64,000 nt of DNA from the NCBI GenBank assembly GCA_021824145.1, contig JAKALM010000005.1, positions 62,001 through 126,000 on the forward strand, given 5' to 3'. How positions within the stretch are numbered: the stretch's first letter is position 1; each line of letters begins with the position of its first letter. Below the pieces are notes generated by a model. It did not search any database, was not told the DNA's origin, and saw only the letters and a program-made list of their open reading frames with translations. Source of the DNA: Bacteroidota bacterium (GTDB taxonomy: Bacteria; Bacteroidota; Ignavibacteria; Ignavibacteriales; Ignavibacteriaceae). Made by a program: the position numbers and the translations under genes. Positions 25,700-46,563 of this stretch are shown here, in pieces.

Positions 25700-25758
25700 A
25701 TTATTTCGTTAAATTTATTTAATAAAATTTACATCTAAATATTTGAAAAGGAGAAATA

Positions 25759-26475
25759 ATGAAAAAATTAGTAATTACATTCTTTTGTGTGCTTTTATAT
25801 TCTTCAATTTCTGATTTATTAGCGCAAAATGCTGTTAAAAGTGCAAGCTTGAGACCAGCGAGTGATTCTTCTAAAAACATTCGGACGTATAAAGCAAGCG
25901 AGATTAAAGAATATAAAAGCAAGGGAATAGAAGTTCAGAATTCAAAACAAATTGAAATCCACAAGAGCAGCGATATAAAAATACATAAAGCAAAAGAGGT
26001 TGAGATTTATAAAAGCAAAGAAATTGATGAATATAAATCTAAAAATATGGATTCGCATAATGGTAATGACGTTTTACCAAATGCAAAACATGATGAAAAA
26101 AAAGTGATTGAGAAAAAAATAGATACTAAAAATGATAACAATAAAAATAATGTAGAATCTTTAATCGGCACATGGCATACAAGAATTCCAGGTGCAGTTT
26201 GGCAAACTCCAAGCGGACGCGATGGATATGATAATTTGCATGTTTCTTCCGGATTGAAATCCGGCGATTTAGTTATCAACGCAAATGGTACATATAAATG
26301 GAATTCATATGGCGGAAAGAAAGGTAATTGGATTAAGGGCGATTCAGGTTATCCAATTGTTTTAATTGATAACGTTGAAAAGAAAAAGTGGAGAGTTGGA
26401 TATGACTCAAAACATACTGGTGGCAGAGATATAATTATTTGGGACGGATATATTTGGTACGATGGGAAAAAGTAA
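25759..26475 (+). CDS. Secreted protein with octapeptide repeats and a lipocalin-like tail
   Basis: The 238-residue protein starts with a signal peptide ending near LLAQNA at residues 20-25, preceded by AAAAGGAG ribosome-binding sequence. Residues 44 to 107 are eight consecutive eight-residue units following the pattern [Y/H]-K-[S/A]-x-x-[I/V]-[E/K/D]-x (for example YKSKEIDE and HKAKEVEI), highly Lys/Glu-rich. The C-terminal 100 residues begin LIGTWHTRIPGAVW and include NANGTYKWNSYGG and WRVGYDSK, resembling lipocalin-like beta domains that bind small ligands. I do not recognise this architecture. It is a single gene; ATPase gene uup ends 59 bp upstream. Confidence 0.7.
   Translation: MKKLVITFFCVLLYSSISDLLAQNAVKSASLRPASDSSKNIRTYKASEIKEYKSKGIEVQNSKQIEIHKSSDIKIHKAKEVEIYKSKEIDEYKSKNMDSHNGNDVLPNAKHDEKKVIEKKIDTKNDNNKNNVESLIGTWHTRIPGAVWQTPSGRDGYDNLHVSSGLKSGDLVINANGTYKWNSYGGKKGNWIKGDSGYPIVLIDNVEKKKWRVGYDSKHTGGRDIIIWDGYIWYDGKK
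25888..26079 (+). repeat. Eight 24-bp tandem repeats in coding sequence
   Basis: The coding sequence contains eight units of 24 bp each, each encoding an octapeptide of the form [Y/H]K[S/A]xx[I/V]xx. Units have diverged at the DNA level (Lys codons AAA/AAG, Tyr TAT, His CAT/CAC) but remain in frame. Confidence 0.75.
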
Positions 26476-29558: not shown

Positions 29559-31673
29559 ATGATCGGTCAGACAATATTACATTATCAAGTTATTGAAGAA
29601 TTAGGTAGAGGGGGTATGGGGGTAGTTTATAAAGCTGAAGATTTACGATTGAAACGTGAAGTAGCAATTAAGTTTTTGCCGCTTCAAATTTCTGCCAATA
29701 AAGAAGAACGACAGAGGTTTGAAATTGAAGCACAAGCTGCTGCCGCACTTAATCATCCGAACATAGCAACCATTCATTCAATAGAAGAAAGCGGCGGAGA
29801 AATATTTATTGTAATGGAATATATCAACGGGCAAGAATTGAAGAAAAAGATCGAGAGCGGAAAATTATCAATAGATGAATCCTTGAATATCATTGAACAA
29901 ATTTCTTACGGATTGAACGCAGCACATCTAAAAGGAATTATTCACCGCGATATTAAAAGCAGCAACATAATGATAACATCTTCCGGTCAAGTTAAGATTA
30001 TGGATTTCGGTCTTGCAAAAGTTCGCGGCAGCAGTCAGATAACAAAAATAGGCACAACCATTGGTACAACTGCCTACATGTCTCCAGAGCAAGCTCACGG
30101 CGAACGTGTCGATCAGCGTTCAGATATCTGGGCTGTGGGAGTAATTTTATATGAGATGCTTGCAGGGCATGTGCCTTATAACGGCGAATTTGAACAAGCA
30201 ATAATTTATTCTATCATAAATGAAGATCCTGTTCCAATCTCCAAACTACGTCCCGAAGTTCCGCTGAAACTGGAGCAGGTTCTTAACAAACTTCTTACAA
30301 AAGATAAAGAAAAAAGGTTCCAAAATGTTGATGAGTTTATTAAAGAATTAAATGTTATAAAAAATTATAAATCTATGGATAAAGAAAACGAAGGAAAAAC
30401 AATTGCAGTACTGCCCTTTGAAAATATAAGCCCCGACAAAGAGACAGATTATTTTGCAGACGGACTTGCTGAAGAGCTTATAATCAATTTGTCAAAGATT
30501 AAAGAAGTTGGAGTTGTTGCAAGAACTAATTCCATGCAGTATAAAGGAACAAAAAAAGATATTAGTACTATAGGGAGAGAGTTAGGCGCGCGTTATATAA
30601 TGGAAGGCAGTGTAAGAAAATTTAGAGATGACGTAAGAATTTCAGCTCAGCTTATTGATGTTCATAAAGGTACGCAATTATGGGGAGAGACATTCAAAGG
30701 CAAGCTTGCAGATATATTCGACATCCAGGAAAAAGTTTCTAAAGAAATTGTGGATGCACTTATGGTTAAGCTTTCGCCAGTTGAGAAAGTCGTTTTAACA
30801 AAGAAGCAAACTACAAATGCCGAGGCATACGATTATTATCTTAAAGCAAGAAATTTCCTCGCCAGCAGGACAAGAAACAATATCGATTTTGCAGTTATAC
30901 TTTTTCAGAAAGCAGTAGAACTTGATTCTCGTTTTGCCGCAGCTTATGCAGGACTTGGTGAAGCATATGCAATTATTTATCGAGATTTTGACAGAAAAGA
31001 CATTTGGCTTGATAAGGCTTTAGATGCAAGTCTAAAGGCACTAATGTATGATTCAACTTTATCGGATGCTTATGCTTCTCTTGGTTTATCTTATTTTGGA
31101 AAAAATGCACTTGATGATGCTCTCACTTCCAGCAAAAAAGCAATCGAACTTGATCCAAACAATTTTAATGCATACTGGATATTGTCTCGAATTTACCATA
31201 CTACTGATAGGGATATAGAAGCTCTCGAATGTTTGAATAAAGTTATATCTATAAATCCAAATTTCTTTACCGCCTATGATGATCTTGAAATGTATTATGA
31301 AAGAACCAATGACGAAGAGAATTACAAAAACACTCTTCAAACAGTTGTTCAGATAGTTTCAAAGTATTTAGCGCAGCACCCGGAAGATACTTACAGGCGG
31401 ATGGCGTATGCAGTTACTCTTGCAAAACTTAACAAGCTAGAGGAAGCTAAATCAGAAGGCGAAAAAGCGTTGGAACTCAGTCCCAACGATGCCATAATGA
31501 TGTACTACGGCGCTTGTCTTTATGCAAGGCTGGGAGATAAACAACGTGCTGTTGAACTTATCACTGATTCCGTAAATAACGGTTACGAAAATTTCGAATG
31601 GATAAAACGCGACCCGGATTTTAACAGTATCCGAAACGAACCTGGCTATAAAAAATTAATTGAAGGTAAGTAG
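29559..31673 (+). CDS. Ser/Thr protein kinase with FlgO/TolB-like and TPR domains, no membrane span
   Basis: The 704-residue protein has a Hanks kinase domain (about residues 9 to 270): glycine loop LGRGGMGVVY, Lys38 in VAIKF, HRD with Asp131, DFG at 149-151 and APE-like MSPEQ. A region starting TIAVLPFENISPD at residue 281 resembles the TolB/FlgO-like domain often joined to adenylate cyclases and kinases. TPR repeats occupy about residues 415 to 690. Unlike the related kinase at 43793 it shows no membrane span, so it should be cytoplasmic. AAAGGAG precedes the ATG. A second kinase follows 25 bp after its stop codon, probably in one operon. Confidence 0.93.
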   Translation: MIGQTILHYQVIEELGRGGMGVVYKAEDLRLKREVAIKFLPLQISANKEERQRFEIEAQAAAALNHPNIATIHSIEESGGEIFIVMEYINGQELKKKIESGKLSIDESLNIIEQISYGLNAAHLKGIIHRDIKSSNIMITSSGQVKIMDFGLAKVRGSSQITKIGTTIGTTAYMSPEQAHGERVDQRSDIWAVGVILYEMLAGHVPYNGEFEQAIIYSIINEDPVPISKLRPEVPLKLEQVLNKLLTKDKEKRFQNVDEFIKELNVIKNYKSMDKENEGKTIAVLPFENISPDKETDYFADGLAEELIINLSKIKEVGVVARTNSMQYKGTKKDISTIGRELGARYIMEGSVRKFRDDVRISAQLIDVHKGTQLWGETFKGKLADIFDIQEKVSKEIVDALMVKLSPVEKVVLTKKQTTNAEAYDYYLKARNFLASRTRNNIDFAVILFQKAVELDSRFAAAYAGLGEAYAIIYRDFDRKDIWLDKALDASLKALMYDSTLSDAYASLGLSYFGKNALDDALTSSKKAIELDPNNFNAYWILSRIYHTTDRDIEALECLNKVISINPNFFTAYDDLEMYYERTNDEENYKNTLQTVVQIVSKYLAQHPEDTYRRMAYAVTLAKLNKLEEAKSEGEKALELSPNDAIMMYYGACLYARLGDKQRAVELITDSVNNGYENFEWIKRDPDFNSIRNEPGYKKLIEGK

Positions 31674-31698
31674 TATAAAAAATCTAAAAGAAACTGAA

Positions 31699-34395
31699 AT
31701 GGCTAATTTAATAGGAAATACAATTTCACATTATAAGATATTGAATAAAATTGGGGAAGGCGGAATGGGCGTTGTTTATCAAGCTCAGGATACAAAGCTT
31801 GACCGCTTAGTTGCACTAAAGTTTCTACCGGGTCATGCTCTTTCAAATATGGAAGACAAAGAAAGATTTATTAGAGAAGCCAAAGCTGCGGCTTCTCTTA
31901 ATCATCAGAACATTGCACACATTTACGAAATCGGAGAGAGCAGCGAATCCGAATCGGGTAAGCAAATGTTTATTGCAATGGAATATATTGAGGGAAAAAC
32001 TCTTGAAGATGTTATTCATTCTAAAGGAGGTTCGCCGCTTCCATTAAAAACTGCGATCAATTATACAATTCAAATTGCAGAAGGTTTGCAGGCTGCACAC
32101 GAAAAAGGTATTGTACACCGCGATATTAAGTCAGCTAATATTATGGTTAATGAAAAAGATCAAGTCAAGATTATGGACTTTGGCCTTGCAAAGTTTGCCG
32201 GCGGAACTAAGGTAACAAAACTTGGGACCACTATGGGAACAGCTGCCTATATGTCTCCTGAGCAGGCAACTGGCGAGAAGGTTGATAGTCGGACTGACAT
32301 ATGGTCGCTTGGAGTAGTAATGTACGAAATGATTAGCGGTCAGCTTCCATTTAAGAATGATTACGAGCAGGCTTTAATGTATGCGATTATGAACGAAGAA
32401 CCTGAACCGCTTACATCAAAAAGAACTGGGGTTCCAATTTTGCTTGATGGAGTAATATCAAAAGCTCTTGCTAAAGATCCATCAATGCGTTATCAGCATA
32501 TTGATGAAATTCCTGCTGATCTTAGAACAATAGAATTAAAATCTGGAAGCTTGACCACAAAAGTTTCAGCTCAAACTAGAATGTTTCCTGTAGTTCAAAA
32601 AAAATCTAATAATATTAAAGAAAAAATTCCGTGGATGGTAACAGGTGCTGTTGTTCTCTTTTCCTTGTTTTTAATTTTATTTAATAAAAACAGCAGCACT
32701 ACAACAAGTATTACAAAACTAAGTATAGTTATTCCACAAAATGATCCACCGTTTTTTTCAGATAACCAAATAATATCTATCTCGCCTAATGGAAAGTATC
32801 TTGCTTATATAGGTACAAGAAACGACGCTTCACTTATATATCTAAGGTCAATAACGGATTTTGACATGAGACCTATTGAAGGAACCGAAGGAGCTGATAA
32901 CCCGTTCTTTTCACCGGATGGTAATTGGATTGCTTTTTTTGCTAATGGAAAACTTAAAAAAATATCAATAATCGGAGGTTCACCGGAAATATTAGCAGAT
33001 GCACCTGGAGATAGAGGTGGATTTTGGGCTGACAACGACAAAATTTATTTCACTCCTAATTATTCATCAGGAATAATGGAAGTACCTTCTGGCGGTGGAA
33101 ATGTAACTGTGGTTTCAAAATTAGATACTTTGGCGAATGAAAGAACGCATCGCTGGTGTCAAGTGCTGCCGGGAAGCAAATGGATTTTATATACCATCGG
33201 AAACCAAACCAATGTTAATTCTTATGATAATTCTAAAATTGCATTGCAGTCTTTAATAAATAATAAACAGTACATTTTAAACATTCGCGGAAGTATGGCT
33301 CGATATATTCAACCTGGTTTTTTGATCGTTGCGAGGAATAGTAATCTTTATGTAACTAAGTTTGATCCCGACGATATTAAGAACTCATTATCTCCTGTAA
33401 CCGGCATTCAGGATGTAGCAGGAAATCCAAGCAGCGGCATTTCATACTTTAGTGTAGCAAATAATGGTGAATTATTTTTTCTGCCTAGCAGTGGTAAAAA
33501 TAATAACAACCTTGTATTAATCAATATGGATGGAAAGGTTACTCCTCTTAAAACAGAAGAAGGCTTTTATAGCACTCCGCGTTTTTCACCAGACGGCAGC
33601 AAAATAGCTGTTACAATAGGCAGAAATCCCGAAAATGACGGCAGTATTTGGATATATAATTTAAAGGAAAATTCTATTAACAGATTTACTTTTGGTGAAG
33701 GAAATTACGATCCGGTTTGGAGTAGAAACGGTAAAGATATTTATTATGCATCCGGTATGAGTGGTTCCGAAGGTATTTTAGTCAGACCTGCTGACGGCTC
33801 AGCTTTACCAAAAAGAATTTATAAATTAACCCAATTACTTTATCCGCAGTCAGTTACTACCGATTCAAAATATTTAATTCTGAATGCATTTTCTGGCCCA
33901 ACACAAGGCGATATTTTGGGGCTGAATCTTAACAATTATAAGATTGACACATTAGTATCGACAAAAAATAATGAATATTTCGGCGAAGTATCACCTAACG
34001 GTAAGTGGTTTTTATATGGATCAAATGAAACAGGCAATAATGAAAATTTTTTAAAATCCTATCCAGATTTAAATGGCAAATGGCAGATTACAACAGGCGG
34101 TGGCGGAGATCCTATATGGTCACCCAATGGAGATAAAATTTATTACATAAACTTTCAAGCAAAATTAATGTCTCTTCCAATTATTACTAATCCTTCACTC
34201 GTTATAGGAAATCCTAAAATTCAATTTGATATTTCGGCTATGGATATGCAGGATGCACTTGGCGCTACTTATGATATTTCACCTGATGGGAAGGAATTTG
34301 TTTTTATAATGAGAAACAGTAAAACAAAAACACAAACTGAGATAAATGTTATTCTTAATTGGCAAAAAGAATTGAATGAAAAGTTAAAAGAATAA
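31699..34395 (+). CDS. Membrane Ser/Thr protein kinase with PD40/WD40-type sensor propeller
   Basis: The 898-residue protein starts best at ATG 31699; a TTG at 31660 would overlap the previous gene. Kinase domain residues: GEGGMGVVY, VALKF, HRD with Asp142, DFG and MSPEQAT. One membrane span lies at about residues 312-331 (WMVTGAVVLFSLFLILF). The C-terminal 560 residues form repeated beta-propeller blades with PD40 signatures such as FSPDGNWIAF, FSPDGSKIAV and WSPNGDKIYYI. The propeller should face the periplasm and sense a ligand while the kinase works inside. It is 25 bp downstream of the TPR kinase and 120 bp before the first giant histidine kinase. Confidence 0.92.
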   Translation: MANLIGNTISHYKILNKIGEGGMGVVYQAQDTKLDRLVALKFLPGHALSNMEDKERFIREAKAAASLNHQNIAHIYEIGESSESESGKQMFIAMEYIEGKTLEDVIHSKGGSPLPLKTAINYTIQIAEGLQAAHEKGIVHRDIKSANIMVNEKDQVKIMDFGLAKFAGGTKVTKLGTTMGTAAYMSPEQATGEKVDSRTDIWSLGVVMYEMISGQLPFKNDYEQALMYAIMNEEPEPLTSKRTGVPILLDGVISKALAKDPSMRYQHIDEIPADLRTIELKSGSLTTKVSAQTRMFPVVQKKSNNIKEKIPWMVTGAVVLFSLFLILFNKNSSTTTSITKLSIVIPQNDPPFFSDNQIISISPNGKYLAYIGTRNDASLIYLRSITDFDMRPIEGTEGADNPFFSPDGNWIAFFANGKLKKISIIGGSPEILADAPGDRGGFWADNDKIYFTPNYSSGIMEVPSGGGNVTVVSKLDTLANERTHRWCQVLPGSKWILYTIGNQTNVNSYDNSKIALQSLINNKQYILNIRGSMARYIQPGFLIVARNSNLYVTKFDPDDIKNSLSPVTGIQDVAGNPSSGISYFSVANNGELFFLPSSGKNNNNLVLINMDGKVTPLKTEEGFYSTPRFSPDGSKIAVTIGRNPENDGSIWIYNLKENSINRFTFGEGNYDPVWSRNGKDIYYASGMSGSEGILVRPADGSALPKRIYKLTQLLYPQSVTTDSKYLILNAFSGPTQGDILGLNLNNYKIDTLVSTKNNEYFGEVSPNGKWFLYGSNETGNNENFLKSYPDLNGKWQITTGGGGDPIWSPNGDKIYYINFQAKLMSLPIITNPSLVIGNPKIQFDISAMDMQDALGATYDISPDGKEFVFIMRNSKTKTQTEINVILNWQKELNEKLKE

Positions 34396-34515
34396 CCGAA
34401 ATGGTAACGTTTATGATTGGAAAGACATTCCAAATTTTATAAGAAACAAAGGATATTAACACATAAATATTTACACAAAACAAAATTTATTTATAGTAAT
34501 AATAAATTCGGAAAT

Positions 34516-37500
34516 ATGAAAAACCTGTTACTAATGTTTATTTGTCTCTGCTTTTTTGATGTTTCTACAAAAGCGCAGCATTATACTGAAATGGGCTCTC
34601 AAGCAGTTATAAATTATACGCCCAAAGAATATAACGCCAATCCACAGAATTGGGCAATTACTCAAGATGAAAGAGGCGTAATGTATTTTGGCAATGATGA
34701 TGGACTGCTTGAGTTTGACGGCAATACATGGCGCCTTTATCAGGTACCTAACAAGACGATCATTCGCGCTTTAGACAAAAGCAGTAACGGAAAAATTTAT
34801 GCAGGTGCAGCAAGTGATTTAGGATATTTTCTACCGGATTCTGCTGGGAAATTAACATTTCACTCGTTGATGAAATATTTACCTGAAAATATGAGAAATT
34901 TTTCTGATGTCTGGGATACTTATGTAAGCGGCGGTATGGCATATTTTAATACTGGTAACTACATCTTTGTATGGAACATTCAAAATAAAAAATTTATAGC
35001 AATTAAATCCCATAGTAGTTTTAAGGGAATATTTAAAGTAAACAATTCCATTTATGTACGGGAAACAGGTATTGGTCTTGAAGTCTTCAAAAGCGATTCT
35101 CTTAGGCTTGTTAAAGGAGGAGAAAAATTTGCCAATTTAAGAATTAAAGTAATGCTTTCATTCCCTGGTGAAAAAGGAACAAGTTTAATTATTACAGATT
35201 CCATGGGCTTATTTAAGTATGATGGCAGTAAATTTATCCACTTTAAAACATCAGCGGATAAGTTTATAAAAGAAAATCCAATTTATTGCGGTACAGTGCT
35301 TTCAGACGGAAATATATTTTTGGGAACAAGTTTAGAAGGAGCAATTGTAATTGATACAACGGGAAAAGAAATTCACATTTATAACTTGAAAAACGGTATT
35401 ATAGATGATTATATAAATTATGCATTTCAAGATCGTTCTGGTGGAATATGGCTGGCTACACAAAACGGCATCTCGAGAATAGACTATTCCTCACCGGTTA
35501 GCTATTTCGATTCAAGAAATAATTTTTCAGGTAATTCAACCGATATTATTTGGCATAATGGAATTATATATGCGGCATCTAATCATGGTGTTTATTCGCT
35601 TGATCCAAATACTTCAATTTTTCATTTGCTAAAGGGTAACAACAGCAACGCTTGGTCGTTTGTTGAGATTGGAAATGAGCTCCTAGTTGGGACCGACAAT
35701 GGTTTATTTAAAGTTGAAAAGGATGAATTAAAATCAATAAAAAATACCGTTGGAGATAATTATGAAATTAATTATTTAAAACATTCGAAACTGAATCCTA
35801 ATAGAATTTATGTCGCGACTTATAATGGATTATGGTCTGTTTTAAAATCTGGTAATAATTGGAAAGACGAAGGTAAAATCCTCAATAATAATGATCAAAA
35901 TACTTCCATCGTAGAAAACAAAGATGGCAGTTTGTGGCTGGGAACTTTTTCTACTGGGCTTTTTAGAATTACTTTTCATAAAGATGAAAAAGGAAACATC
36001 ATATTGAATGAACCAGTCATCGAACATTTTAATAAAAGAAATGGGCTGCAAGATGGTTATATAGAAGTAGAGAAAGTCAACTCGACAAATTATTTTATTA
36101 CAACAGACAGCATATACAAATTTAACGAAAACAAAAAATTTTTTTATACCGATACTTCTGATAAAATCATAAGTGCAGTTTATAAGATGAACAATAAAAA
36201 AGCTATTATCGATTTTAGACAAGACCAATTGGGAAGAGTTTGCATATCATTTAAAGATAGAATAGAAATGGGTATACCTGAGGAAGCAGGTTCATATAAA
36301 TGGATATCTGATCCTTTTAACCGTTTTGAAGGCGATGAACCTTGGGAAATGTATGCTGAAAGCAATGGTATTACTTGGTTTGGTACAGGTTCAAGTATTA
36401 TTAAATATGATTTTAATAAGAAAAATTTTGACAGTTCTGAATATTCAACTCTTGTGCGCAGTGTTGAGATTGGAGATGATTCAACAATTTTTTTCGGCGA
36501 TAATGATAATAAATCTATTGTCCCGAGCCTAAACTTCAAAAACAATTCAATTAAATTCACATATTCAGCTGCAAGCTATGAAGAAAAGAACGGAAATAAA
36601 TTCAGAACATTTTTAATCGGATTTGACAAAGGATGGTCTTCTTGGTCAACAGAAACAACGAAAGAATATACAAATCTTCCTCCCGGAAAGTATATGTTTA
36701 AGGTGGCATCGTTAAACATTATCGGAATTGAAGGCAAAATTGGAACCTATGCGTTTATAATCTTTCCTCCATGGTATAATACATGGTGGGCTTACTTTAT
36801 TTATATAGTTCTTTTCGGAATTGTAGTATTTGTTATTGACCGGATGCAGAGAAAAAGACTAATAAAAAAAGAAAGGTATCGGGCAGAAATTGAGAGGAAA
36901 GAAAATGAACTTAAACATGCAAAAGAAATTGAAAAAGCTTATAAGGAACTCAAAGATACTCAAGTACAATTAATTCACTCGGAAAAGATGGCATCACTTG
37001 GTGAATTGACAGCAGGCATTGCGCACGAAATAAAAAATCCTTTGAACTTTGTGAACAATTTTTCTGAAATAAGCAATGAATTACTAGATGAATTGAAATC
37101 TGAATTACTGAATGATAGAAAAGAAGATGTGTTGGAGATTATTGATGATCTAAAACAAAACCTTGAAAAAATAAATCATCATGGCAAAAGAGCAGACTCA
37201 ATTGTTAAAGGAATGCTTCTTCATTCTCGGGGAACTACCGGTGAAAAAACTTTAACGGACATAAATAGTCTTCTCGATGAATATGTTAATCTTGCCTATC
37301 ACGGAATGAGAGCACAGAATAAAGATTTTAATATTACGATTGAAAAAGATTATGATGAATCAATTGGAAATATTAATGTAGTACCCCAAGATATCAGCCG
37401 GGTATTTTTAAATATAATTAATAACGGTTGCTACGCTGCCAATGATAAAAAGAAAACAAGCGGAGAAAATTTATCCCCGAAAATAAAAATCTTAACAAAA

Positions 37501-37731
37501 AATCTAAAAGATAAAGTCGAAATTCGAATTGCAGATAATGGAAATGGAGTTCCAGATAAAATAAAAGATAAACTCTTCCAGCCCTTTTTCACAACAAAAC
37601 CGACAGGCGAAGGTACTGGTTTAGGATTATCATTGAGTTATGATATTGTTGTAAAGCAGCATAACGGAGAAATTAAAATTGTAAGCAATGAAGGCGAAGG
37701 AGCAGAGTTTATTTTAACTCTGCCTAAATAG
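34516..37731 (+). CDS. Reg_prop/Y_Y_Y sensor histidine kinase 1
   Basis: Starting at ATG 34516 gives 1071 residues and a proper signal peptide (MKNLLLMFICLCFFDVSTKA); a longer frame from 34417 lacks one. About residues 35 to 680 form two Reg_prop propellers with repeated WAITQDERGVMYFGNDDG-like and IWLATQNGISRIDY blades. A Y_Y_Y domain follows, with NLPPGKYMFKV at about residue 720. The membrane span is at 757-775. A coiled coil leads to HisKA with His837 in AGIAHEIKNPLNF and an HATPase with IADNGNGVP and GTGLGLSL. No receiver or AraC output domain is fused, unlike many Bacteroides hybrid sensors. The likely partners are the receivers 4-5 kb downstream. Confidence 0.93.
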   Translation: MKNLLLMFICLCFFDVSTKAQHYTEMGSQAVINYTPKEYNANPQNWAITQDERGVMYFGNDDGLLEFDGNTWRLYQVPNKTIIRALDKSSNGKIYAGAASDLGYFLPDSAGKLTFHSLMKYLPENMRNFSDVWDTYVSGGMAYFNTGNYIFVWNIQNKKFIAIKSHSSFKGIFKVNNSIYVRETGIGLEVFKSDSLRLVKGGEKFANLRIKVMLSFPGEKGTSLIITDSMGLFKYDGSKFIHFKTSADKFIKENPIYCGTVLSDGNIFLGTSLEGAIVIDTTGKEIHIYNLKNGIIDDYINYAFQDRSGGIWLATQNGISRIDYSSPVSYFDSRNNFSGNSTDIIWHNGIIYAASNHGVYSLDPNTSIFHLLKGNNSNAWSFVEIGNELLVGTDNGLFKVEKDELKSIKNTVGDNYEINYLKHSKLNPNRIYVATYNGLWSVLKSGNNWKDEGKILNNNDQNTSIVENKDGSLWLGTFSTGLFRITFHKDEKGNIILNEPVIEHFNKRNGLQDGYIEVEKVNSTNYFITTDSIYKFNENKKFFYTDTSDKIISAVYKMNNKKAIIDFRQDQLGRVCISFKDRIEMGIPEEAGSYKWISDPFNRFEGDEPWEMYAESNGITWFGTGSSIIKYDFNKKNFDSSEYSTLVRSVEIGDDSTIFFGDNDNKSIVPSLNFKNNSIKFTYSAASYEEKNGNKFRTFLIGFDKGWSSWSTETTKEYTNLPPGKYMFKVASLNIIGIEGKIGTYAFIIFPPWYNTWWAYFIYIVLFGIVVFVIDRMQRKRLIKKERYRAEIERKENELKHAKEIEKAYKELKDTQVQLIHSEKMASLGELTAGIAHEIKNPLNFVNNFSEISNELLDELKSELLNDRKEDVLEIIDDLKQNLEKINHHGKRADSIVKGMLLHSRGTTGEKTLTDINSLLDEYVNLAYHGMRAQNKDFNITIEKDYDESIGNINVVPQDISRVFLNIINNGCYAANDKKKTSGENLSPKIKILTKNLKDKVEIRIADNGNGVPDKIKDKLFQPFFTTKPTGEGTGLGLSLSYDIVVKQHNGEIKIVSNEGEGAEFILTLPK

Positions 37732-37787
37732 CTGATATAGATAAATCATTATTAGATGTCCAAAATAAAATAATATTTAGGAATCAG

Positions 37788-40700
37788 ATGAAACAATTTA
37801 ATCGAATAGAAGGTTTTTTTATAAAAATAAGTAATGCTGGCATGCTTGTTATTTTTACATTTCTGTTGCTTACAGCTAATAATGCATATGCCCAAAATAA
37901 AATTAAAAGCGGGTATCCTCTCATAAATAATTATTCACCTAAGGAGTATGGCGCATTTCAATCCAACTGGGCAATTGCTCAGGATAAAAGAGGTGTAATG
38001 TATTTCGGGAACGATAGTGGGCTTCTCGAATTTGATGGTGAATCTTGGAGACTTTATCAAGTAACAAATAAAACCACTGTCCGTTCTATATCAATAGCTG
38101 ATGATGGAAAATTATATGTTGGCGCCGTAGCCGAATTGGGATATTTCATGTCGGATGATTTAGGAAGGCTAACATATCATTCATTAATTAAATATATACC
38201 TAAAAACAATTTGGATTTTGCTGATGTCTGGGGAACATTTATATACGGCGATAATGTATATTTTAATGTTAATAAATACATATTGATTTGGAATATAAAA
38301 AAGAAAAAATTTTCTGTTATAAAGGGAAAAGATAACTTCCACCTTGTCTTTCTTGTCAACGGGAAAATTTATGCCAGAGAGTGGGGGAAGGGCATAGAAG
38401 AAGTTAAAGATAATTCTCTCAAACTTCTTAAAGGAAGTGAAAAATTTGCTAATGAAAGAATATACATAATGCTTCCTTTTCCCGGAGAAAAAGGTACCAG
38501 CCTGTTAGTAACCCGTAATATGGGTTTATTCAAATACGACGGCAATAGTTTTTCACCCTTTAAAACTCAAGCAGATAATTTTATAAAAGCAAATCTTGTC
38601 TATACTCCAGGGGCAGTGCTTATGGATGGGAACATTCTTATAGGAACTGTTAGCGGTGGTGCAGTAGTTATAGATACAACCGGAAAAATAGTTCAAATCT
38701 TTAACAGGCAATGCGGAATTATTAGTAATTCTATTGATTTTACTTTTCAGGACAATGCGGGTGCAGTATGGCTGGGTACAGATAATGGAATCTCAAGGGT
38801 TGATTACACATCACCGGTTAGTTATTTCGACGGTAGAAGCAATTTCTTAACAACTCCTAACGATATTATTCGATATAAGGGTACAATTTACGCTGGAGGT
38901 AATAATGGAATATATTATCTGGAACCTGGAACTTCGTTGTTCCATCTTGTCAAGAACGGCAGCAATCAATTCTTCTCTCTTCTTAATATAGGATCCGAAC
39001 TAATTACTGGTGGCATTAACGGATTATTTAGAATTGAAAACAACGAATTATTTCCTATAAGAAAAACTGTGGGAAATGAATACAACATTCAATCGTTAAA
39101 GCAGTCAAAATTGAATCCGGATAGGATTTACGTAGGTGCGCAAGGCTTATGGTCGGTTCTGAAGACAAAGAACAGTTGGAAGGACGAAGGGCGGATTCTG
39201 AATATAGCCGATGTTGTTTCTTCAATCATCGAAGAGAAAGATGGAACATTATGGCTGGCTACAAATGCTTCCGGTGTGTTTAAGATAATTTTTAAAAAAG
39301 ATGAACATGGTAATTTGTTAATCAATAAGCCGAAGATAGAACATTTTGGTAAATCAAACGGTCTTCAAAGCGGCTATATGAAAATTAGTAATTTTAATGG
39401 TGTAAAATATTTCGTTACTTCCGACAGCATATACAAATTTGACGACACAAAAGAACGATTTTACTCAGATACGTCGGATAAAATAATATCGTCTTTTTAT
39501 AAGCTTGAAGGTAAACATGGTGTTACAACTTTTCAGCAGGATAGTCTAGGACGCTACTGGTTTTTAAGTCAAAATACTATAGCTATGGGCAACCGTCGCT
39601 TGGATGGATCGTTCAACTGGCTTACTGCTCCATTTAAAAGATTTGCAGGAGACCAGTTAACAGAAGTATACTCGGAAAAGAATGGTGATGTCTGGATGCT
39701 TGCAGGTTTAGGCCTCATCAAGTACGATTTTTCAAGGGAGCACTCGAAATTCGCTCATTATGATGCGCTTATAAGAAGTGTGGATGTGGGAAGGGACTCA
39801 ACAATATATTTCGGAGAAACACTTATTCATCCTTTAATTCCTGAAATTTCATTTAAGGATAATTCTGTAAAATTTAAGTTCTCGGCAGCCAGCTACGAAG
39901 GAAAAGGAGTTAACAGATTTGAAACTTTTCTTCAAGGCTTTGATGATGAATGGTCTACATGGTCAACAGATAATGCTAAGGAATATACCAATCTTTCTCC
40001 TGGAAAATATACATTTAGAGTTAGAGCAAAGAACATCAGCGATTTGGACAGCAGAGAGGCATACTTTTCTTTCGTGATACTTCCTCCATGGTACAGAACA
40101 TGGTGGTCGTACTTGGGATATTTTTTAATTTTCATCGGAATGATTTTTACAATAGACAAAGTTCAGCGCCGCAGGCTGACAATTAAAGAAAGACAGCGTT
40201 CTTATTTGAGGGAGACAGAACTTAGAGCCGAAGCTGCAGAAGCTGAAACAAAAGCTTTGCAGGCTGAAAATGAAAGGAATAAAAATATAGAGTTGTTAAG
40301 CGAAATCGGTAAAGAAATAACCGCAACGCTCGATCTCGATAAAATATTCTACAAGCTTTATGAGCATGTTAACCAATTAGCCGATGCTACAATATTCGGC
40401 GTAGGTATTTATCATCCGGAAAAAGATGAGATTGAATACAGGCTGGCTTTGGAAAAAGGTAAGAAATATCCAACCTATACTAGAGATACCAAGAATGTAG
40501 ATCAATTTCCTGTTTGGTGTATCAAGAACCGGAAACCAATATTTATAAACGATGTAAGAGCGGAATACAAAAACTATATAAAAAATTACAAAGAGCCAGA
40601 AACTATGCTGGAAGACGGTACGCTCTCTGAGGAACCAAGGTCGTTAATTTATCTGCCTTTAATTTCGCAGGAGCGGTTGTGGGGGATAATCACCATACAA

Positions 40701-41654
40701 AGCTTCAGTAAAAACGCTTATCAGGACTATCATCTTGGTCTGCTTCAAAATCTTGCATCTTATACTGCTATTGCTCTAGATAACGCAGAAGCATATAAAA
40801 AATTAAATGAAACTGTAGACAAATTAAATTCAACTTTGAACGATCTAAAAGCAACTCAAGAAAAATTAGTAGTTCAAGAAAAATTAGCTTCACTTGGGCA
40901 ATTGACGGCTGGCATTGCACATGAAATAAAGAATCCTTTAAACTTTGTAAACAACTTTGCGGAGCTTTCCAAAGAACTTGTAGCTGATTTAAGAGAAGAA
41001 TTTGACAATGTAAAAGATAAACTCGGTTCCGGGATTATGGAAAACTTTGAAGATATTATTTCTAACATTGAACAGAACGTAACGAAAATAAACGAACATG
41101 GTAATAGAGCTGACAGCATTGTAAGAAGCATGTTGCAGCATTCGCGCGGCAAGTCGGGTGAAAAAATTCTGTCCGATATAAATGCAATTTTGGATGAAGA
41201 TCTCAACCTCGCTTACCATGGTTTAAGAGCACGCGATACTTCTTTCAATATTACTATGGAGAAAGATTACGATAAAAATTTAGAAAAGATTTCAGTAGTT
41301 CCTCAAGATTTAAGCAGGGTTTTCCTTAATATAATAAATAACGGATTCTATGAAGCTAACAAAAAGAAAAAAACGCTGGGAGACCAATTCACTCCAAAAT
41401 TAAAAGTTTCTACAAGTGATGATGAAAATAATATAATAGTGAAAATAAGAGATAATGGTAATGGCATACCTGAGGATGTCCGCGATAAATTATTCAATCC
41501 ATTTTTTACTACTAAGCCAACTGGAGAAGGTACAGGACTTGGTTTATCGTTGAGTTACGATATTGTTACTAAAGTACATGGAGGGAAAATTAAATTTGAT
41601 AGCGAGGAAGGAAAGTTTACAGAATTTATAATTACAATACCTAAATCAATATGA
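37788..41654 (+). CDS. Reg_prop/Y_Y_Y sensor histidine kinase 2 with GAF domain
   Basis: The 1288-residue protein is a paralogue of the preceding kinase, with the same signal peptide plus two-propeller plus Y_Y_Y layout (NLSPGKYTFRV), and a membrane span at 772-790. It differs by an added cytoplasmic coiled coil and GAF domain (about residues 840 to 1000, with YLPLISQERLWGIITIQSF) before the HisKA/HATPase. The phospho-acceptor is His1045 in AGIAHEIKNPLNF. It thus combines an external sensor with an internal one. It starts 56 bp after kinase 1 and ends 7 bp before the lone receiver gene, so the four genes look cotranscribed. Confidence 0.93.
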   Translation: MKQFNRIEGFFIKISNAGMLVIFTFLLLTANNAYAQNKIKSGYPLINNYSPKEYGAFQSNWAIAQDKRGVMYFGNDSGLLEFDGESWRLYQVTNKTTVRSISIADDGKLYVGAVAELGYFMSDDLGRLTYHSLIKYIPKNNLDFADVWGTFIYGDNVYFNVNKYILIWNIKKKKFSVIKGKDNFHLVFLVNGKIYAREWGKGIEEVKDNSLKLLKGSEKFANERIYIMLPFPGEKGTSLLVTRNMGLFKYDGNSFSPFKTQADNFIKANLVYTPGAVLMDGNILIGTVSGGAVVIDTTGKIVQIFNRQCGIISNSIDFTFQDNAGAVWLGTDNGISRVDYTSPVSYFDGRSNFLTTPNDIIRYKGTIYAGGNNGIYYLEPGTSLFHLVKNGSNQFFSLLNIGSELITGGINGLFRIENNELFPIRKTVGNEYNIQSLKQSKLNPDRIYVGAQGLWSVLKTKNSWKDEGRILNIADVVSSIIEEKDGTLWLATNASGVFKIIFKKDEHGNLLINKPKIEHFGKSNGLQSGYMKISNFNGVKYFVTSDSIYKFDDTKERFYSDTSDKIISSFYKLEGKHGVTTFQQDSLGRYWFLSQNTIAMGNRRLDGSFNWLTAPFKRFAGDQLTEVYSEKNGDVWMLAGLGLIKYDFSREHSKFAHYDALIRSVDVGRDSTIYFGETLIHPLIPEISFKDNSVKFKFSAASYEGKGVNRFETFLQGFDDEWSTWSTDNAKEYTNLSPGKYTFRVRAKNISDLDSREAYFSFVILPPWYRTWWSYLGYFLIFIGMIFTIDKVQRRRLTIKERQRSYLRETELRAEAAEAETKALQAENERNKNIELLSEIGKEITATLDLDKIFYKLYEHVNQLADATIFGVGIYHPEKDEIEYRLALEKGKKYPTYTRDTKNVDQFPVWCIKNRKPIFINDVRAEYKNYIKNYKEPETMLEDGTLSEEPRSLIYLPLISQERLWGIITIQSFSKNAYQDYHLGLLQNLASYTAIALDNAEAYKKLNETVDKLNSTLNDLKATQEKLVVQEKLASLGQLTAGIAHEIKNPLNFVNNFAELSKELVADLREEFDNVKDKLGSGIMENFEDIISNIEQNVTKINEHGNRADSIVRSMLQHSRGKSGEKILSDINAILDEDLNLAYHGLRARDTSFNITMEKDYDKNLEKISVVPQDLSRVFLNIINNGFYEANKKKKTLGDQFTPKLKVSTSDDENNIIVKIRDNGNGIPEDVRDKLFNPFFTTKPTGEGTGLGLSLSYDIVTKVHGGKIKFDSEEGKFTEFIITIPKSI

Positions 41655-41661
41655 GGTCAAA

Positions 41662-42024
41662 ATGAAACTTTTAGTTGTTGACGATGAAATTGACGTTCAG
41701 TTTTTATTCCAACAAAAATTTCGGAAGGAAATAAAATCCGGTAAAATGCAAATTATGTATGCTGGCAATGGTAAATCTGCACTGGAGATATTAGAATCAA
41801 TTGAGAACCGCACCGAATATTTAATATTGACAGATATAAACATGCCGGGGATGACTGGAATTGAACTGCTTAGGGTTATTAAAGCAAGATATCCCGAATT
41901 AAAGGTCTTTATGATTACCGCTTATGGTGATGAGCATTACTTTAATACTGCTAAAAATCTTGGGGCAGATGATTATTTTGTAAAACCTCTTCAATTTGAA
42001 GTACTAAAAGAAAAACTTAGTTAA
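41662..42024 (+). CDS. Single-domain response regulator (CheY-like receiver)
   Basis: At 120 residues it holds only a receiver domain: acidic VVDDE at 5-9, phospho-acceptor Asp58 in LTDINMPGMTG, Thr/Ser in MITAYGD and Lys in DYFVKPL. It has no output domain, so it passes a signal by binding or acts as a phosphate sink. It lies 7 bp after histidine kinase 2, the most probable donor, and 26 bp before a receiver-phosphatase gene. GAGGTC before the ATG is a usable ribosome-binding site. Confidence 0.93.
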   Translation: MKLLVVDDEIDVQFLFQQKFRKEIKSGKMQIMYAGNGKSALEILESIENRTEYLILTDINMPGMTGIELLRVIKARYPELKVFMITAYGDEHYFNTAKNLGADDYFVKPLQFEVLKEKLS

Positions 42025-42050
42025 CAAAATGTATTTGAAGGAAAAATAAA

Positions 42051-43220
42051 ATGCCAAACTCAAAAATATTGGTCGTTGATGATGAACCTGATCTTCAGAT
42101 TCTTATCAAGCAAAAATTTCGCACCAAAATTAAAACAAATGAATACGAATTTCATTTTGCAGAGAACGGCTCAGAAGCACTGGAAAAAATTAAAAACGAT
42201 GGAACTGTAGATTTGATTTTGACTGACATAAATATGCCTGTCATGGATGGGCTTACATTGCTTTCTAAAATTAATGAGCTTAATAATAAATTATTGCGGT
42301 CTGTTATTGTTTCTGCATACGGCGATATGGAAAATATTAGGACCGCAATGAATAGAGGAGCTTATGATTTTATAACGAAGCCTATTGATTTAAGAGATCT
42401 CGAAATTACAATTGAAAAATCATTAAAAGAAATTGAGCTTTATAAAAAAGCATTATTATCTCATGATAAATTAGTTGCACTGCAGCAGGAACTGGATATT
42501 GCTACGGCAATCCAAACATCAATTCTTCCAAAAACTTTTCCGCCTTTCCCTGACAGAAAAGAATTTGAAATTTATTCTAAAATGATTACTGCAAAAGAAG
42601 TAGGCGGAGATCTATTTGATTTCTTTTTTATTGATAAATACAGACTAGCAGTTATAATTGGTGATGTAACCGGAAAGGGAATAGCAGCAGCTCTGCTAAT
42701 GGCAGTCTGTAAATCCTTGTTAAAAGCAACTGCTCAAAAAGGAAGACCGACTGATGAAGTCTTATCAGAAGTAAATAACATTTTAGTTGATGAAAGTCCG
42801 TCGAATATGTTCGTTACGGTTTTCTTTGGAATACTTGATACAAGAAACGGCTCTTTTGAATATTCAAACGGCGGCCATAATCCGCCGTATTTAATTACTT
42901 CAGATGGAAATATTAATCAGCTTGAAAATATAGGCGGACTTATGCTGGGTGCAATGAACGATTCGCCATATTCATCCAATATTATAATGCTCAAACCGGA
43001 TGATAGCATTTTCTTTTATACTGACGGTGTGACAGAAGCATTTAATAAAGATGGCGAAGAATTTAATGAAACACGTCTTGTGGATTCACTATTAAATGCA
43101 AATAATAAAAATTCGGATAGGTTTGTAGAGAATATAATTTCTAATGTACAGAACTTTATGTCCGGTGCCGAACAATCAGATGATATTACATGCATGATGT
43201 TAAAATATTTAAAACATTAA
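42051..43220 (+). CDS. Receiver-SpoIIE/PP2C phosphatase fusion (RsbU-like)
   Basis: The 389-residue protein joins a receiver (residues 1 to about 120; Asp59 in LTDINMPVMDG) to a PP2C/SpoIIE phosphatase domain (about 160 to 389). The phosphatase carries AKEVGGDLFDFF, IGDVTGKGIAAALLMA, NGGHNPP, YTDGVTEAFN and DDITCMML, all the metal-binding acidic residues needed. Phosphorylation of the receiver is expected to switch the phosphatase on or off. The preceding genes are two histidine kinases and a lone receiver, so it is the natural output of that system. AGGAAAAAT precedes the ATG as ribosome-binding region. Confidence 0.93.
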   Translation: MPNSKILVVDDEPDLQILIKQKFRTKIKTNEYEFHFAENGSEALEKIKNDGTVDLILTDINMPVMDGLTLLSKINELNNKLLRSVIVSAYGDMENIRTAMNRGAYDFITKPIDLRDLEITIEKSLKEIELYKKALLSHDKLVALQQELDIATAIQTSILPKTFPPFPDRKEFEIYSKMITAKEVGGDLFDFFFIDKYRLAVIIGDVTGKGIAAALLMAVCKSLLKATAQKGRPTDEVLSEVNNILVDESPSNMFVTVFFGILDTRNGSFEYSNGGHNPPYLITSDGNINQLENIGGLMLGAMNDSPYSSNIIMLKPDDSIFFYTDGVTEAFNKDGEEFNETRLVDSLLNANNKNSDRFVENIISNVQNFMSGAEQSDDITCMMLKYLKH

Positions 43221-43792
43221 AATAAATTATGAATTGATTGTTTACATCAAAGGCGAAAGTAATTTAGTTTTGAATGACAAACGACATTATTATTCAAAGG
43301 TAATTCTTTTTTTTGTTTATTCTATTCCTTTTCAATTGCGGATAATTCTAAAATAAATCTATATAATTAAATAATTCTATCAAGAAGTTAATAATATCAA
43401 AATATGGAGATTCTAATTGAAAGTTAATTGGATTAAGTATATGACATTTTGACTAAATTATTATTACTGATAACAGAAATTATATGATTTTAACACTATT
43501 TTAATTACTCTCTAACCAGTCTGTAACTAGCCTATGAAAGGCATCTGACAAGCCTGGCCTTAACTAGGCAAGTATTTATGGTCTTGGTTAGCAAAATTAT
43601 CTGCCATATTGGCATAAGTATTTTATGAATCAAAATTTTATTGCAAATATGCTTAAGAATTTCAAATACTAAAGTTAAAAATGTATAGACAAATGGATTA
43701 TCTAAAAATGTATAATAAAATATATAACGCTTAATTAGCCTAATGATCCATTTAGAAAATTAATATAAGATAAAGAAAGCTGCAGGTTTATA
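43221..43792. other. 572-bp intergenic stretch without a recognised gene
   Basis: No frame longer than about 15 codons with a start was found that looks real. It contains CTAACCA at 43512-43518 and its inverse TGGTTAG at 43585-43591 with short GCCT/AGGC pairs between, a possible but unconvincing structured leader. The kinase gene follows, with no clear ribosome-binding site. Confidence 0.55.
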
Positions 43793-46390
43793 ATGATTGG
43801 AGAAACAATTCTTCATTACAAAATAATAGAGAAACTCGGCGAAGGCGGAATGGGTGTTGTCTATAAAGCCGAGGACTTAAAGCTTAAACGCATTGTTGCT
43901 TTGAAATTTTTGCCTTCTCATGTTACATCATCCATAGATGACCTTGCACGATTCAACCAGGAAGCGCAAGCTGCGGCAATTCTTAATCATCCTAATATAT
44001 GCATAATATATTCTATTGAAGAAGAAAACGGAAAGCAATTCATATCAATGGAATTTATTGACGGAATTACTCTAAACAGAAAGATTGCCGGTGTACCAAT
44101 GAAAGTTAGCGATGCAGTAACTTACGCAATACAAATTGGAGATGCGCTTCAGGAAGCACATACAAACGGTATTGTTCACAGAGACATTAAGTCCGAGAAT
44201 ATAATGGTCAATTCGAAGAACCAAATAAAAGTAATGGATTTCGGTCTCGCTAAACTAAAAGGTTCAATCAAGCTTACGAAAGCTTCAAGTACAGTTGGAA
44301 CTCTTGCCTATATGGCGCCGGAACAAATTCAAGGTGGAGATGTTGATGCCCGCTCAGACATTTTTTCATTCGGCGTTGTGCTGTTTGAAATGCTGACTGG
44401 CAGACTGCCCTTCTACGGAGAACATGATGCCTCGATGATGTATTCGATATTAAATGAAGAGCCTGAACCGTTGCAAAAATATTTACCGGATGCAAATTCT
44501 GATCTTATTCATTTGATGAATCGTCTACTTGAGAAAGATCCCGAAGACCGGTATCAGTCAATGAGAGATATTGTTATTGAGCTTAGAAGAATCATAAAAC
44601 ATACCGGCAGTGTTTCAAGAAAAATGATTCAGCAGCCTTTGCCATCTGCAAAAGTAAATATTAGTTCTGATGAAATTCAAAAAGAAAATATTAATGTCGA
44701 AGAACTTCAAGGGAAGGGAAAATCTGCGGGTGATATTCCTTCAAATAAAAATAACAAAAGGAAAATTACTGTTGTTGTATCTGCAGCTGCAGCAGTTGTT
44801 CTAATTGTATTACTTTATTTCTTGGTATTTAATAAAAGTGCTGTGCCGGCTTTGGGAAAATCGATTGCCGTTCTCCCATTTAAGAATTTGAGTGCGGATA
44901 AGAATGACGACTATTTCAGTGATGGTATAACTGAAGACATCACTGTTGAACTTTCTCAGATTGGTGACCTGAAAGTAATCGCAAGAAACGCTGTTATGAA
45001 ATATAAGAACAGCGATGCGAGCATTAAAGAAATCGGAAACGATCTTGGTGTATCAGCTATTCTTGAAGGAAGTATTCAAAAAGAAGGAAATGAAGTTAGA
45101 ATAGTTGCACAGCTCGTTGATGTAAATTCTGGTGAATATCTCTGGGCTGGGACTTATGATAAAGAATTAACACAGATATTTGCGATCCAGAGTGATGTTT
45201 CAAAGCAAATTGCTGCAGCGCTTAAGACCAAGCTTACTCCCGAGGAAGCGTCTAGGATTGATAAGAAGCCAACTGATAACATAACTGCCTATCAATATTA
45301 TCTTAAAGGGAGAGAATATTATTACAGGTACAAAAAAGAAGATAATGAAAATGCGATATCGCTGTTTAAGCAAGCTTTGGAGCTGGATCCGAAATACGCT
45401 TTAGCTTATGCCGGATTAGGAGATTGTTACGGACAGCGTGTTCAGAAATTCGGTTTCCCTGAAGAATGGAACGATTCTGCAATAGCCGTAAGCAAAAAGG
45501 CAATATCAATTGATCCGGATATTGCAGAAGGGTATAAAGCCTTGGCTCTTGCCCAGTTTAACAAAGGCTGGATGAAGCAGGCATTAGAAACTAACATGGA
45601 GGCAATTAAAGCAAATCCTAACTACTGGCCAGCTGTTGGAAATGTTGGTGCTTGTTATGAATTTTTAGGTGAATTGTCTAATGCAGTAAAATGGGATATT
45701 AAATCAAATCAATTAAATCCTACTGGTGCCTTTGGATATTCACTTCTTGCACGCGTGTACATACTTCTTAATGATTATCAAAATGCAGAAAAGAATTTAA
45801 ATATTGCATTAAACCTTCAGCCTGATTTGCCCTCGGCTTATGAAGATTACGGTCATCTGTATTTTATCCAGGGCAATTATAAACAGGCAATAAAGTACTT
45901 CGAAAAGATTTTTGAAATTACGCCGGATGATCCTGCGACAATTATTGATATTACACCGTCATACATCAACTTAGGTAAATATGATAAGGCTGAAGAAATT
46001 CTTAAACAGGTTCCTGCCGGCAGCATATTCAAAATAGATGCCGATATTTATTCAGCATATATAAGTAAAAAGAAATATCCCGGGAAAAATATAAATAGCT
46101 TGATTGAACCGTCAGAGCAAAAGTTAAGAAAATATATTTCAAACGGTGACGAGTTTAATGAAGATATACTTCTTATGTCCTTTATTGAAATTGTCAAAGG
46201 CAATAAAACGGAAGCTTACACTTGGCTTAATAAAGCTGTTGACTTTGGTTTTAGGGATTATATGCGGCTTCTTAACAATCCTCTAACTTCAGATATTCGC
46301 AATGAGAAGCAATTCAATGATGTAATTCAAATTATTAAGAACAAGGTGAAAGAACAGCAAAATATTTTAGCGTTGAATCAAAATAAGTAA
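43793..46390 (+). CDS. Membrane Ser/Thr protein kinase with FlgO/TolB-like and TPR domains
   Basis: The 865-residue protein is a paralogue of the first TPR kinase. Its kinase domain has GEGGMGVVYKAED, VALKF (Lys38), HRD with Asp131, DFGLAK and MAPEQ. A hydrophobic span lies at about residues 325-347 (ITVVVSAAAAVVLIVLLYFLVF), which the first kinase lacks. It is followed by the same IAVLPFKNLSADKNDDYFSDG-type domain and TPR repeats to the C-terminus, probably outside the cytoplasm. The following gene is another PD40 kinase, so the arrangement repeats that of 29559-34395. A GTTTATA sequence precedes the ATG without strong ribosome-binding site. Confidence 0.93.
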   Translation: MIGETILHYKIIEKLGEGGMGVVYKAEDLKLKRIVALKFLPSHVTSSIDDLARFNQEAQAAAILNHPNICIIYSIEEENGKQFISMEFIDGITLNRKIAGVPMKVSDAVTYAIQIGDALQEAHTNGIVHRDIKSENIMVNSKNQIKVMDFGLAKLKGSIKLTKASSTVGTLAYMAPEQIQGGDVDARSDIFSFGVVLFEMLTGRLPFYGEHDASMMYSILNEEPEPLQKYLPDANSDLIHLMNRLLEKDPEDRYQSMRDIVIELRRIIKHTGSVSRKMIQQPLPSAKVNISSDEIQKENINVEELQGKGKSAGDIPSNKNNKRKITVVVSAAAAVVLIVLLYFLVFNKSAVPALGKSIAVLPFKNLSADKNDDYFSDGITEDITVELSQIGDLKVIARNAVMKYKNSDASIKEIGNDLGVSAILEGSIQKEGNEVRIVAQLVDVNSGEYLWAGTYDKELTQIFAIQSDVSKQIAAALKTKLTPEEASRIDKKPTDNITAYQYYLKGREYYYRYKKEDNENAISLFKQALELDPKYALAYAGLGDCYGQRVQKFGFPEEWNDSAIAVSKKAISIDPDIAEGYKALALAQFNKGWMKQALETNMEAIKANPNYWPAVGNVGACYEFLGELSNAVKWDIKSNQLNPTGAFGYSLLARVYILLNDYQNAEKNLNIALNLQPDLPSAYEDYGHLYFIQGNYKQAIKYFEKIFEITPDDPATIIDITPSYINLGKYDKAEEILKQVPAGSIFKIDADIYSAYISKKKYPGKNINSLIEPSEQKLRKYISNGDEFNEDILLMSFIEIVKGNKTEAYTWLNKAVDFGFRDYMRLLNNPLTSDIRNEKQFNDVIQIIKNKVKEQQNILALNQNK

Positions 46391-46466
46391 TAAAATAATA
46401 AACTTTGTAGTGAACAGGAGAGAATTAAAATAAAAAAACAAATGATTAATTATTTGAGCGATTATC

Positions 46467-46523
46467 ATGAACGGTGAAACAATTCTTCATTACAAAATAA
46501 TAGAGAAACTTGGCGAAGGCGGA
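46467..46523 (+). pseudogene. Truncated copy of the 5' end of a Ser/Thr kinase gene
   Basis: An ATG at 46467 begins a 19-codon stretch encoding MNGETILHYKIIEKLGEGG. Over 57 bases it agrees with the kinase start at 43793 at 53 positions, and with the kinase start at 46564 at only 48, so it derives from the former or its ancestor. The homology ends exactly at GGCGGA, where a palindromic element begins. The frame then continues as unrelated sequence to TGA at 46572, overlapping the start of the real kinase by 11 bases. Confidence 0.75.
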
Positions 46524-46533
46524 CCTGTCCGCC
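46518..46533. repeat. GC-rich 16-bp palindrome
   Basis: GGCGGACCTGTCCGCC is a 7-bp perfect inverted repeat with a two-base centre, much richer in G+C than its surroundings. It joins the truncated kinase start to the leader of the complete kinase. Palindromes of this kind are known as small interspersed elements in bacterial genomes; only one copy was found here. Confidence 0.6.
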
Positions 46534-46563
46534 GAAGCATCCGCAATAAATTGGAGATGCCAA

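Follow-up and report, generated by a model that had tools for sequence, protein, structure and literature searches.

The product of ORF 25759-26475, in the 64,000-nucleotide stretch of DNA analysed here (the window), belongs, as judged from its sequence, to a small orphan family with a neat, apparently selected array of eight-residue repeats (octads), and no catalogued family matched it in the libraries searched. The layout runs from a signal-peptide-like start through a short Ser-rich stretch, the octads and a linker to a C-terminal domain (Table 1). Two relatives were found, one from the same genus (G012) and one from another family of the same order (G743). We tentatively read the three members as exported two-domain proteins in which a beta-prone octad stalk of fixed length holds a conserved aromatic-rich domain, an interpretation that falls somewhat short of probable. 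The gene has a GC content of 32.2% against 32.0% for the window, and thus bears no compositional sign of recent import; a promoter scan returned 4 sites, with 6.9 expected, and was uninformative.

Table 1. Features of the octad-repeat gene and its product (positions in the window).
Feature	Position	Strand	Basis
Whole coding sequence	25759..26475	+	Open frame, 238 aa plus stop
Shine-Dalgarno-like AAGGAG, 5 nt before ATG	25748..25753	+	Direct sequence reading
Signal peptide (by pattern), aa 1-22, likely cleavage between A22 and Q23	25759..25824	+	Q23 invariant in 3/3 members
Degenerate octad 'unit 0' DSSKNIRT, aa 36-43	25864..25887	+	In phase with the array and with G012 PSSGQIQT
Seven clear octads, aa 44-99	25888..26055	+	Lag-8 test; in-phase conservation in two relatives
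Degenerate octad 8 HNGNDVLP, aa 100-107	26056..26079	+	In phase with G743 TKANDVIE; missing from G012
Polar K/D/N-rich linker, aa 108-129	26080..26145	+	Length and sequence vary between members
Conserved C-terminal domain, aa 130-238, Trp/Tyr-rich	26146..26472	+	73-79% identity among three members

Eight octads follow one another in frame at 25888-26079, as the first-pass annotation of this DNA had proposed: YKASEIKE, YKSKGIEV, QNSKQIEI, HKSSDIKI, HKAKEVEI, YKSKEIDE, YKSKNMDS and HNGNDVLP. Units 1-7 are clear and unit 8 is degenerate; counting the latter is defensible because TKANDVIE stands in phase with it in the G743 relative. The degenerate 'unit 0' precedes the start given in that annotation, and its counterpart in G012 is not present in G743. 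The motif originally described, [Y/H]K[S/A]xx[I/V]xx, does repeat and is better written as [YH]-K-[ASG]-K-x-[IV]-[ED]-[VI]. The claimed strictness of the period was borne out by a lag-8 self-match test on the stretch between the signal peptide and the C-terminal domain, in which the window protein gave 24 identities against a shuffled mean of 9.3. None of 20000 shuffles reached the lag-8 value, and 1 of 20000 was as good when the best of lags 2-24 was taken. The alternation of charge along the repeat was likewise upheld. The window repeat has 13 K/R and 11 D/E in 56 residues; Gly or Pro accounts for one residue of 56 in the window repeat and three of 56 in that of G012. At the DNA level the array is not listed as a tandem repeat by Tandem Repeats Finder at its threshold, and the mean nucleotide identity between octad units is 56% within the window gene and 61% within the G012 gene.

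The period recurs in both relatives, with lag-8 counts of 25 in G012 (shuffled mean 6.7) and 24 in G743 (shuffled mean 7.4), neither of which was reached in 20000 shuffles. Units 1-7 of the three members, which come from two families of the order, align in phase without insertions or deletions, and the octad number is nearly constant across the three species (7 clear plus 1 degenerate in the window, 7 in G012, and 8 in phase in G743, the last ones degenerate). All 21 units have A, S or G at position 3, whereas these residues fill 10 of the 147 remaining places. Lys occupies position 2 in 17 of the 21 units and position 4 in the same number; position 6 is I, V or M in 18 (I or V in 17) and position 8 is I or V in 13. 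In G743, octads 5-7 carry T, A and P at position 6, so that the hydrophobic residue is lost. The combination of predicted disorder with no repeat conservation in relatives, named beforehand as counting against an ordered repeat, was not what was found, since the repeat is conserved in two relatives.

The two parts of the protein evolve at different rates. The repeats of the three members are 41-45% identical and their C-terminal domains 73-79%. Between the window and G012 genes, dN is 0.43 for the repeats as against 0.19 for the C-terminal domain, with dS at 2.75 and beyond saturation, respectively. Over the coding sequences of these two genes, nonsynonymous changes are far fewer than synonymous ones. 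The order of units cannot be traced between them: of 5040 possible arrangements, 1250 give a match no poorer than the actual one. Given this and the low identity between units, the motif seems to be held by selection and not to stem from recent duplication, and the octad pattern looks old.

The family is patchily distributed. The gene is present in 3 of 164 genomes of the order, the source genome included, and in 2 of 80 genomes of the family. Whole-genome searches, run on samples that overlap, covered 59 relatives, 80 genomes of the family, 79 relatives (with the repeat) and 164 genomes of the order, as well as 395 genomes of the phylum, 391 of the class, 296 of the phylum (with the repeat) and 390 of the class centred on G743. 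These class and phylum samples yielded no further credible member, their weak matches being judged by eye to be chance or low-complexity. Protein and profile scans of genome contigs, viral contigs and plasmids returned nothing beyond the G012 relative, and phage sequences, scanned with the C-terminal part only, contained no relative. By eye, no neighbouring gene is shared among the three loci, which therefore suggest no partner. A transposase-like gene (by eye; L039, 7289-8719) lies directly downstream of the G743 relative and may be tied to the patchy spread of the family.

Octad-like arrays of other kinds were encountered in the course of the searches. At about position 1500 of locus L043 (G211:C49), a 24-base satellite has frames that read as octapeptides such as LPYFGTSV; three of its frames are octapeptide-like, read on the opposite strand and unrelated to the window repeat, and this satellite is a source of false octad matches. 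An array of FKSESTAV octads, in a 186-residue frame at about position 1500 of locus L046 (G621:C7) in a genome of the same class, is also unrelated in sequence to the window repeat.

The protein is likely to carry an export signal, to judge by pattern: its start is signal-peptide-like, in agreement with the signal peptide that had been placed before the repeats. No match to a type IX secretion C-terminal sorting domain was obtained in Pfam or NCBIfam, as judged by the names of what we take to be the sorting-domain families of these libraries. The predicted cleavage site lacks a cysteine. On these two grounds the protein is most likely soluble and periplasmic, or otherwise exported. Signal peptidase I would cleave before Gln23, a residue invariant in the three members, to give a non-lipoprotein exported protein. 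According to the paper on the Bacteroidetes Q-rule, most Bacteroidetes substrates of signal peptidase I have Gln following the cleavage site, and the Q-value of Ignavibacterium album is 77% (PMC5837995).

The C-terminal domain contains 7 Trp and 6-8 Tyr in 109-110 residues in the three members. It has no credible match in Pfam, NCBIfam or the PDB, and the whole protein has none in Pfam, NCBIfam, PHROGs or PDB sequences, in keeping with the unrecognised architecture ascribed to it at first. Nothing credible came out of PDB sequence searches, whether the query was the protein itself or a profile of the C-terminal part, of the repeat or of all three members; in PHROGs the matches were weak (best E 0.018) and fell on uncharacterised or unrelated families. 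A literature search on octapeptide or octad repeats in bacterial secreted proteins brought up nothing on this protein among the titles listed, and one on octapeptide repeats in Bacteroidetes periplasmic proteins gave no match. The first-pass annotation had also described the tail as lipocalin-like, a description that no profile tried supports. To the eye alone, the domain recalls Lipocalin_4 and Lipocalin_5 through a G-x-W close to its beginning and a pattern that looks like beta structure, but neither profile (PF13648 and PF13924) matches the gene in three genomes at E 10, behind the search tool's initial screen; other places in G743 and G000 were matched. A lipocalin-like domain would be an eight-stranded up-and-down beta-barrel, a trait on which the low-confidence structure model described below says little. 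Pfam scans of the C-terminal domain likewise brought up no lipocalin family. The domain would be the part that binds specifically, perhaps to a carbohydrate or another small ligand.

In our preferred reading the octads would form a fixed-length, charge-balanced, beta-prone stalk or spacer, each octad contributing a K-small-K corner followed by a short extended I-E-V stretch, and the stalk would set the conserved, aromatic-rich C-terminal domain at a distance from anything that the N-terminal part contacts. The periodicity of all three members, the gap-free alignment of units 1-7 across two families and the constraint on positions 2, 3, 4, 6 and 8 support a stalk, as do the apparent age and selection of the motif and the lower dN of the C-terminal domain. 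The aromatic richness of that domain, the missing cysteine and the lack of a type IX sorting-domain match fit an exported protein of this kind. In composition, I/V at positions 6 and 8 and a small residue at position 3 favour an extended structure. Against a stalk stand the hydrophobic residues lost from G743 octads 5-7, the lack of a shared gene neighbourhood, and the charge-hydropathy and AlphaFold2 results. On the charge-hydropathy index the repeats score -0.19 and the linker -0.39, both on the disordered side, an index that is weak here because the C-terminal domain itself scores -0.02, at the boundary. The structure prediction proposed in the first-pass annotation was run with AlphaFold2 and yielded no usable model. 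From a two-sequence alignment without G743, mean pLDDT was 35 over the full length, with block means of 25-27 in the repeat (residues 41-100), and 39 for the C-terminal domain, which had three strands of 3 or more residues at low confidence; such low confidence says little when only two sequences are aligned. The folds suggested in the first-pass annotation, a charged beta-solenoid, an amyloid-like or a surface-binding stalk, keep the status of candidates.

The same scores would suit an intrinsically disordered polyampholyte tether, its period arising from recurrent short K-rich sticky motifs that would bind an anionic surface such as peptidoglycan, LPS or a polymer, with the C-terminal domain working independently; this pairing is a real but doubtful possibility. 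The density of opposite charges in the 56 repeat residues, the charge-hydropathy score, the low AlphaFold2 confidence and the faster divergence of the repeats than of the C-terminal domain all favour it. A strict, gap-free eight-residue phase over units 1-7 of three members is nevertheless more than a tether normally needs, and the invariance of the small residue at position 3 and the recurrence of I/V at positions 6 and 8 likewise speak against a tether.

A homotrimeric triple-stranded beta-helix, like the T4 gp5/VgrG needle and serving as an exported trimeric stalk outside that family, is an unlikely form for the octads to take. The gp5C domain is likewise built of eight-residue units, in which Gly dominates position a, Asn/Asp position b and Val position g (PMC3004832). 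The profile search proposed for the repeat gave one lead in this direction: PF22178, the T4 gp5 C-terminal trimerisation domain, aligns 59 of its positions with 59 residues of the G012 repeat (E 0.005), a match that is not specific to the order of residues within the octad. PF22178 matched the G743 repeat at E 0.25 and the window repeat not at all, and its best hmmscan score, 17.3 bits (17.9 in the genome search described below), compares with a curated cut-off of 30.9. When octad columns were scrambled at random, 5 of 10 arrays continued to match, with E values between 0.00086 and 0.054; one scored above the real array, and the other nine scored lower or had no match. Tested exhaustively against the T4 gp5 octads, 4145 of the 5040 possible column orders of the window repeat and 1779 of those of the G012 repeat equalled or outscored the real order. 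With Val8 placed at gp5 position g, 17 of the 21 units have Lys at position a and none has Gly; at position b all 21 have A, S or G. A genome search with PF22178 at E 1 recovered the same G012 gene and a second, weaker location in that genome, and gave no match in the source genome; the profile also matches weakly in 6 of 14 control genomes and exceeds the cut-off in one. Homology to T4 gp5 was dropped on the strength of the scrambled octads, the column-order test and the missing glycine. The likeness comes down to the period of eight, seen in all three members, and to a beta-branched residue at a set position of the octad; the shared period is compatible with a similar geometry but falls short of showing it. 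The octads here lack both the glycine at a and the N/D at b, and, unlike gp5, the protein has a signal-peptide-like start and no phage baseplate neighbours were seen.

It is also unlikely that the octad represents a new, nearly glycine-free, charge-laddered oligomeric beta-rod, an exported stalk independent of the gp5/VgrG needle and joined to an undescribed ligand-binding domain. The repeats of ice-nucleation proteins are of octapeptide origin. The likeness to these bacterial repeats lies in an octapeptide-related period and an exposed bacterial protein; they differ in forming long arrays whose 16-residue units carry ladders of Thr and Tyr, whereas the present arrays comprise 7-8 K/E-rich octads. 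A monomeric beta-solenoid or amyloid-like stack of the ice-nucleation type, with two octads (16 residues) per coil, is very improbable. In its favour, the alternating pattern is typical of strands, a 16-residue coil appears in AlphaFold models of ice-nucleation proteins (PMC9418140), and lag 16 about equals lag 8 in G012 (24 and 25 matches). Against it, the window and G743 proteins each give 16 matches at lag 16 and 24 at lag 8, so that a two-octad unit is not evident there, turn-forming Gly and Pro are few, and an array of 56-64 residues makes about four coils.

Octads that fold would offer a minimal rod module of eight residues, poor in glycine, balanced in charge and open to design, in an array whose length selection keeps nearly constant. 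Should they instead be disordered, the proteins would be a small orphan exported family whose conserved C-terminal domain merits structure determination.

Other features of the window are recorded here. ORF 56535-57773 (+) encodes a Trp/Tyr-rich product with a signal-peptide-like start, and a 45-base (15-residue) tandem repeat in three copies, at 57527-57659, falls in its Arg/Asn-rich tail. The region 29559-49317 is dense in signalling genes: by eye, four Ser/Thr protein-kinase-like genes (29559-31673, 31660-34395, 43793-46390 and 46510-49317) are interspersed with histidine kinase and response regulator genes.
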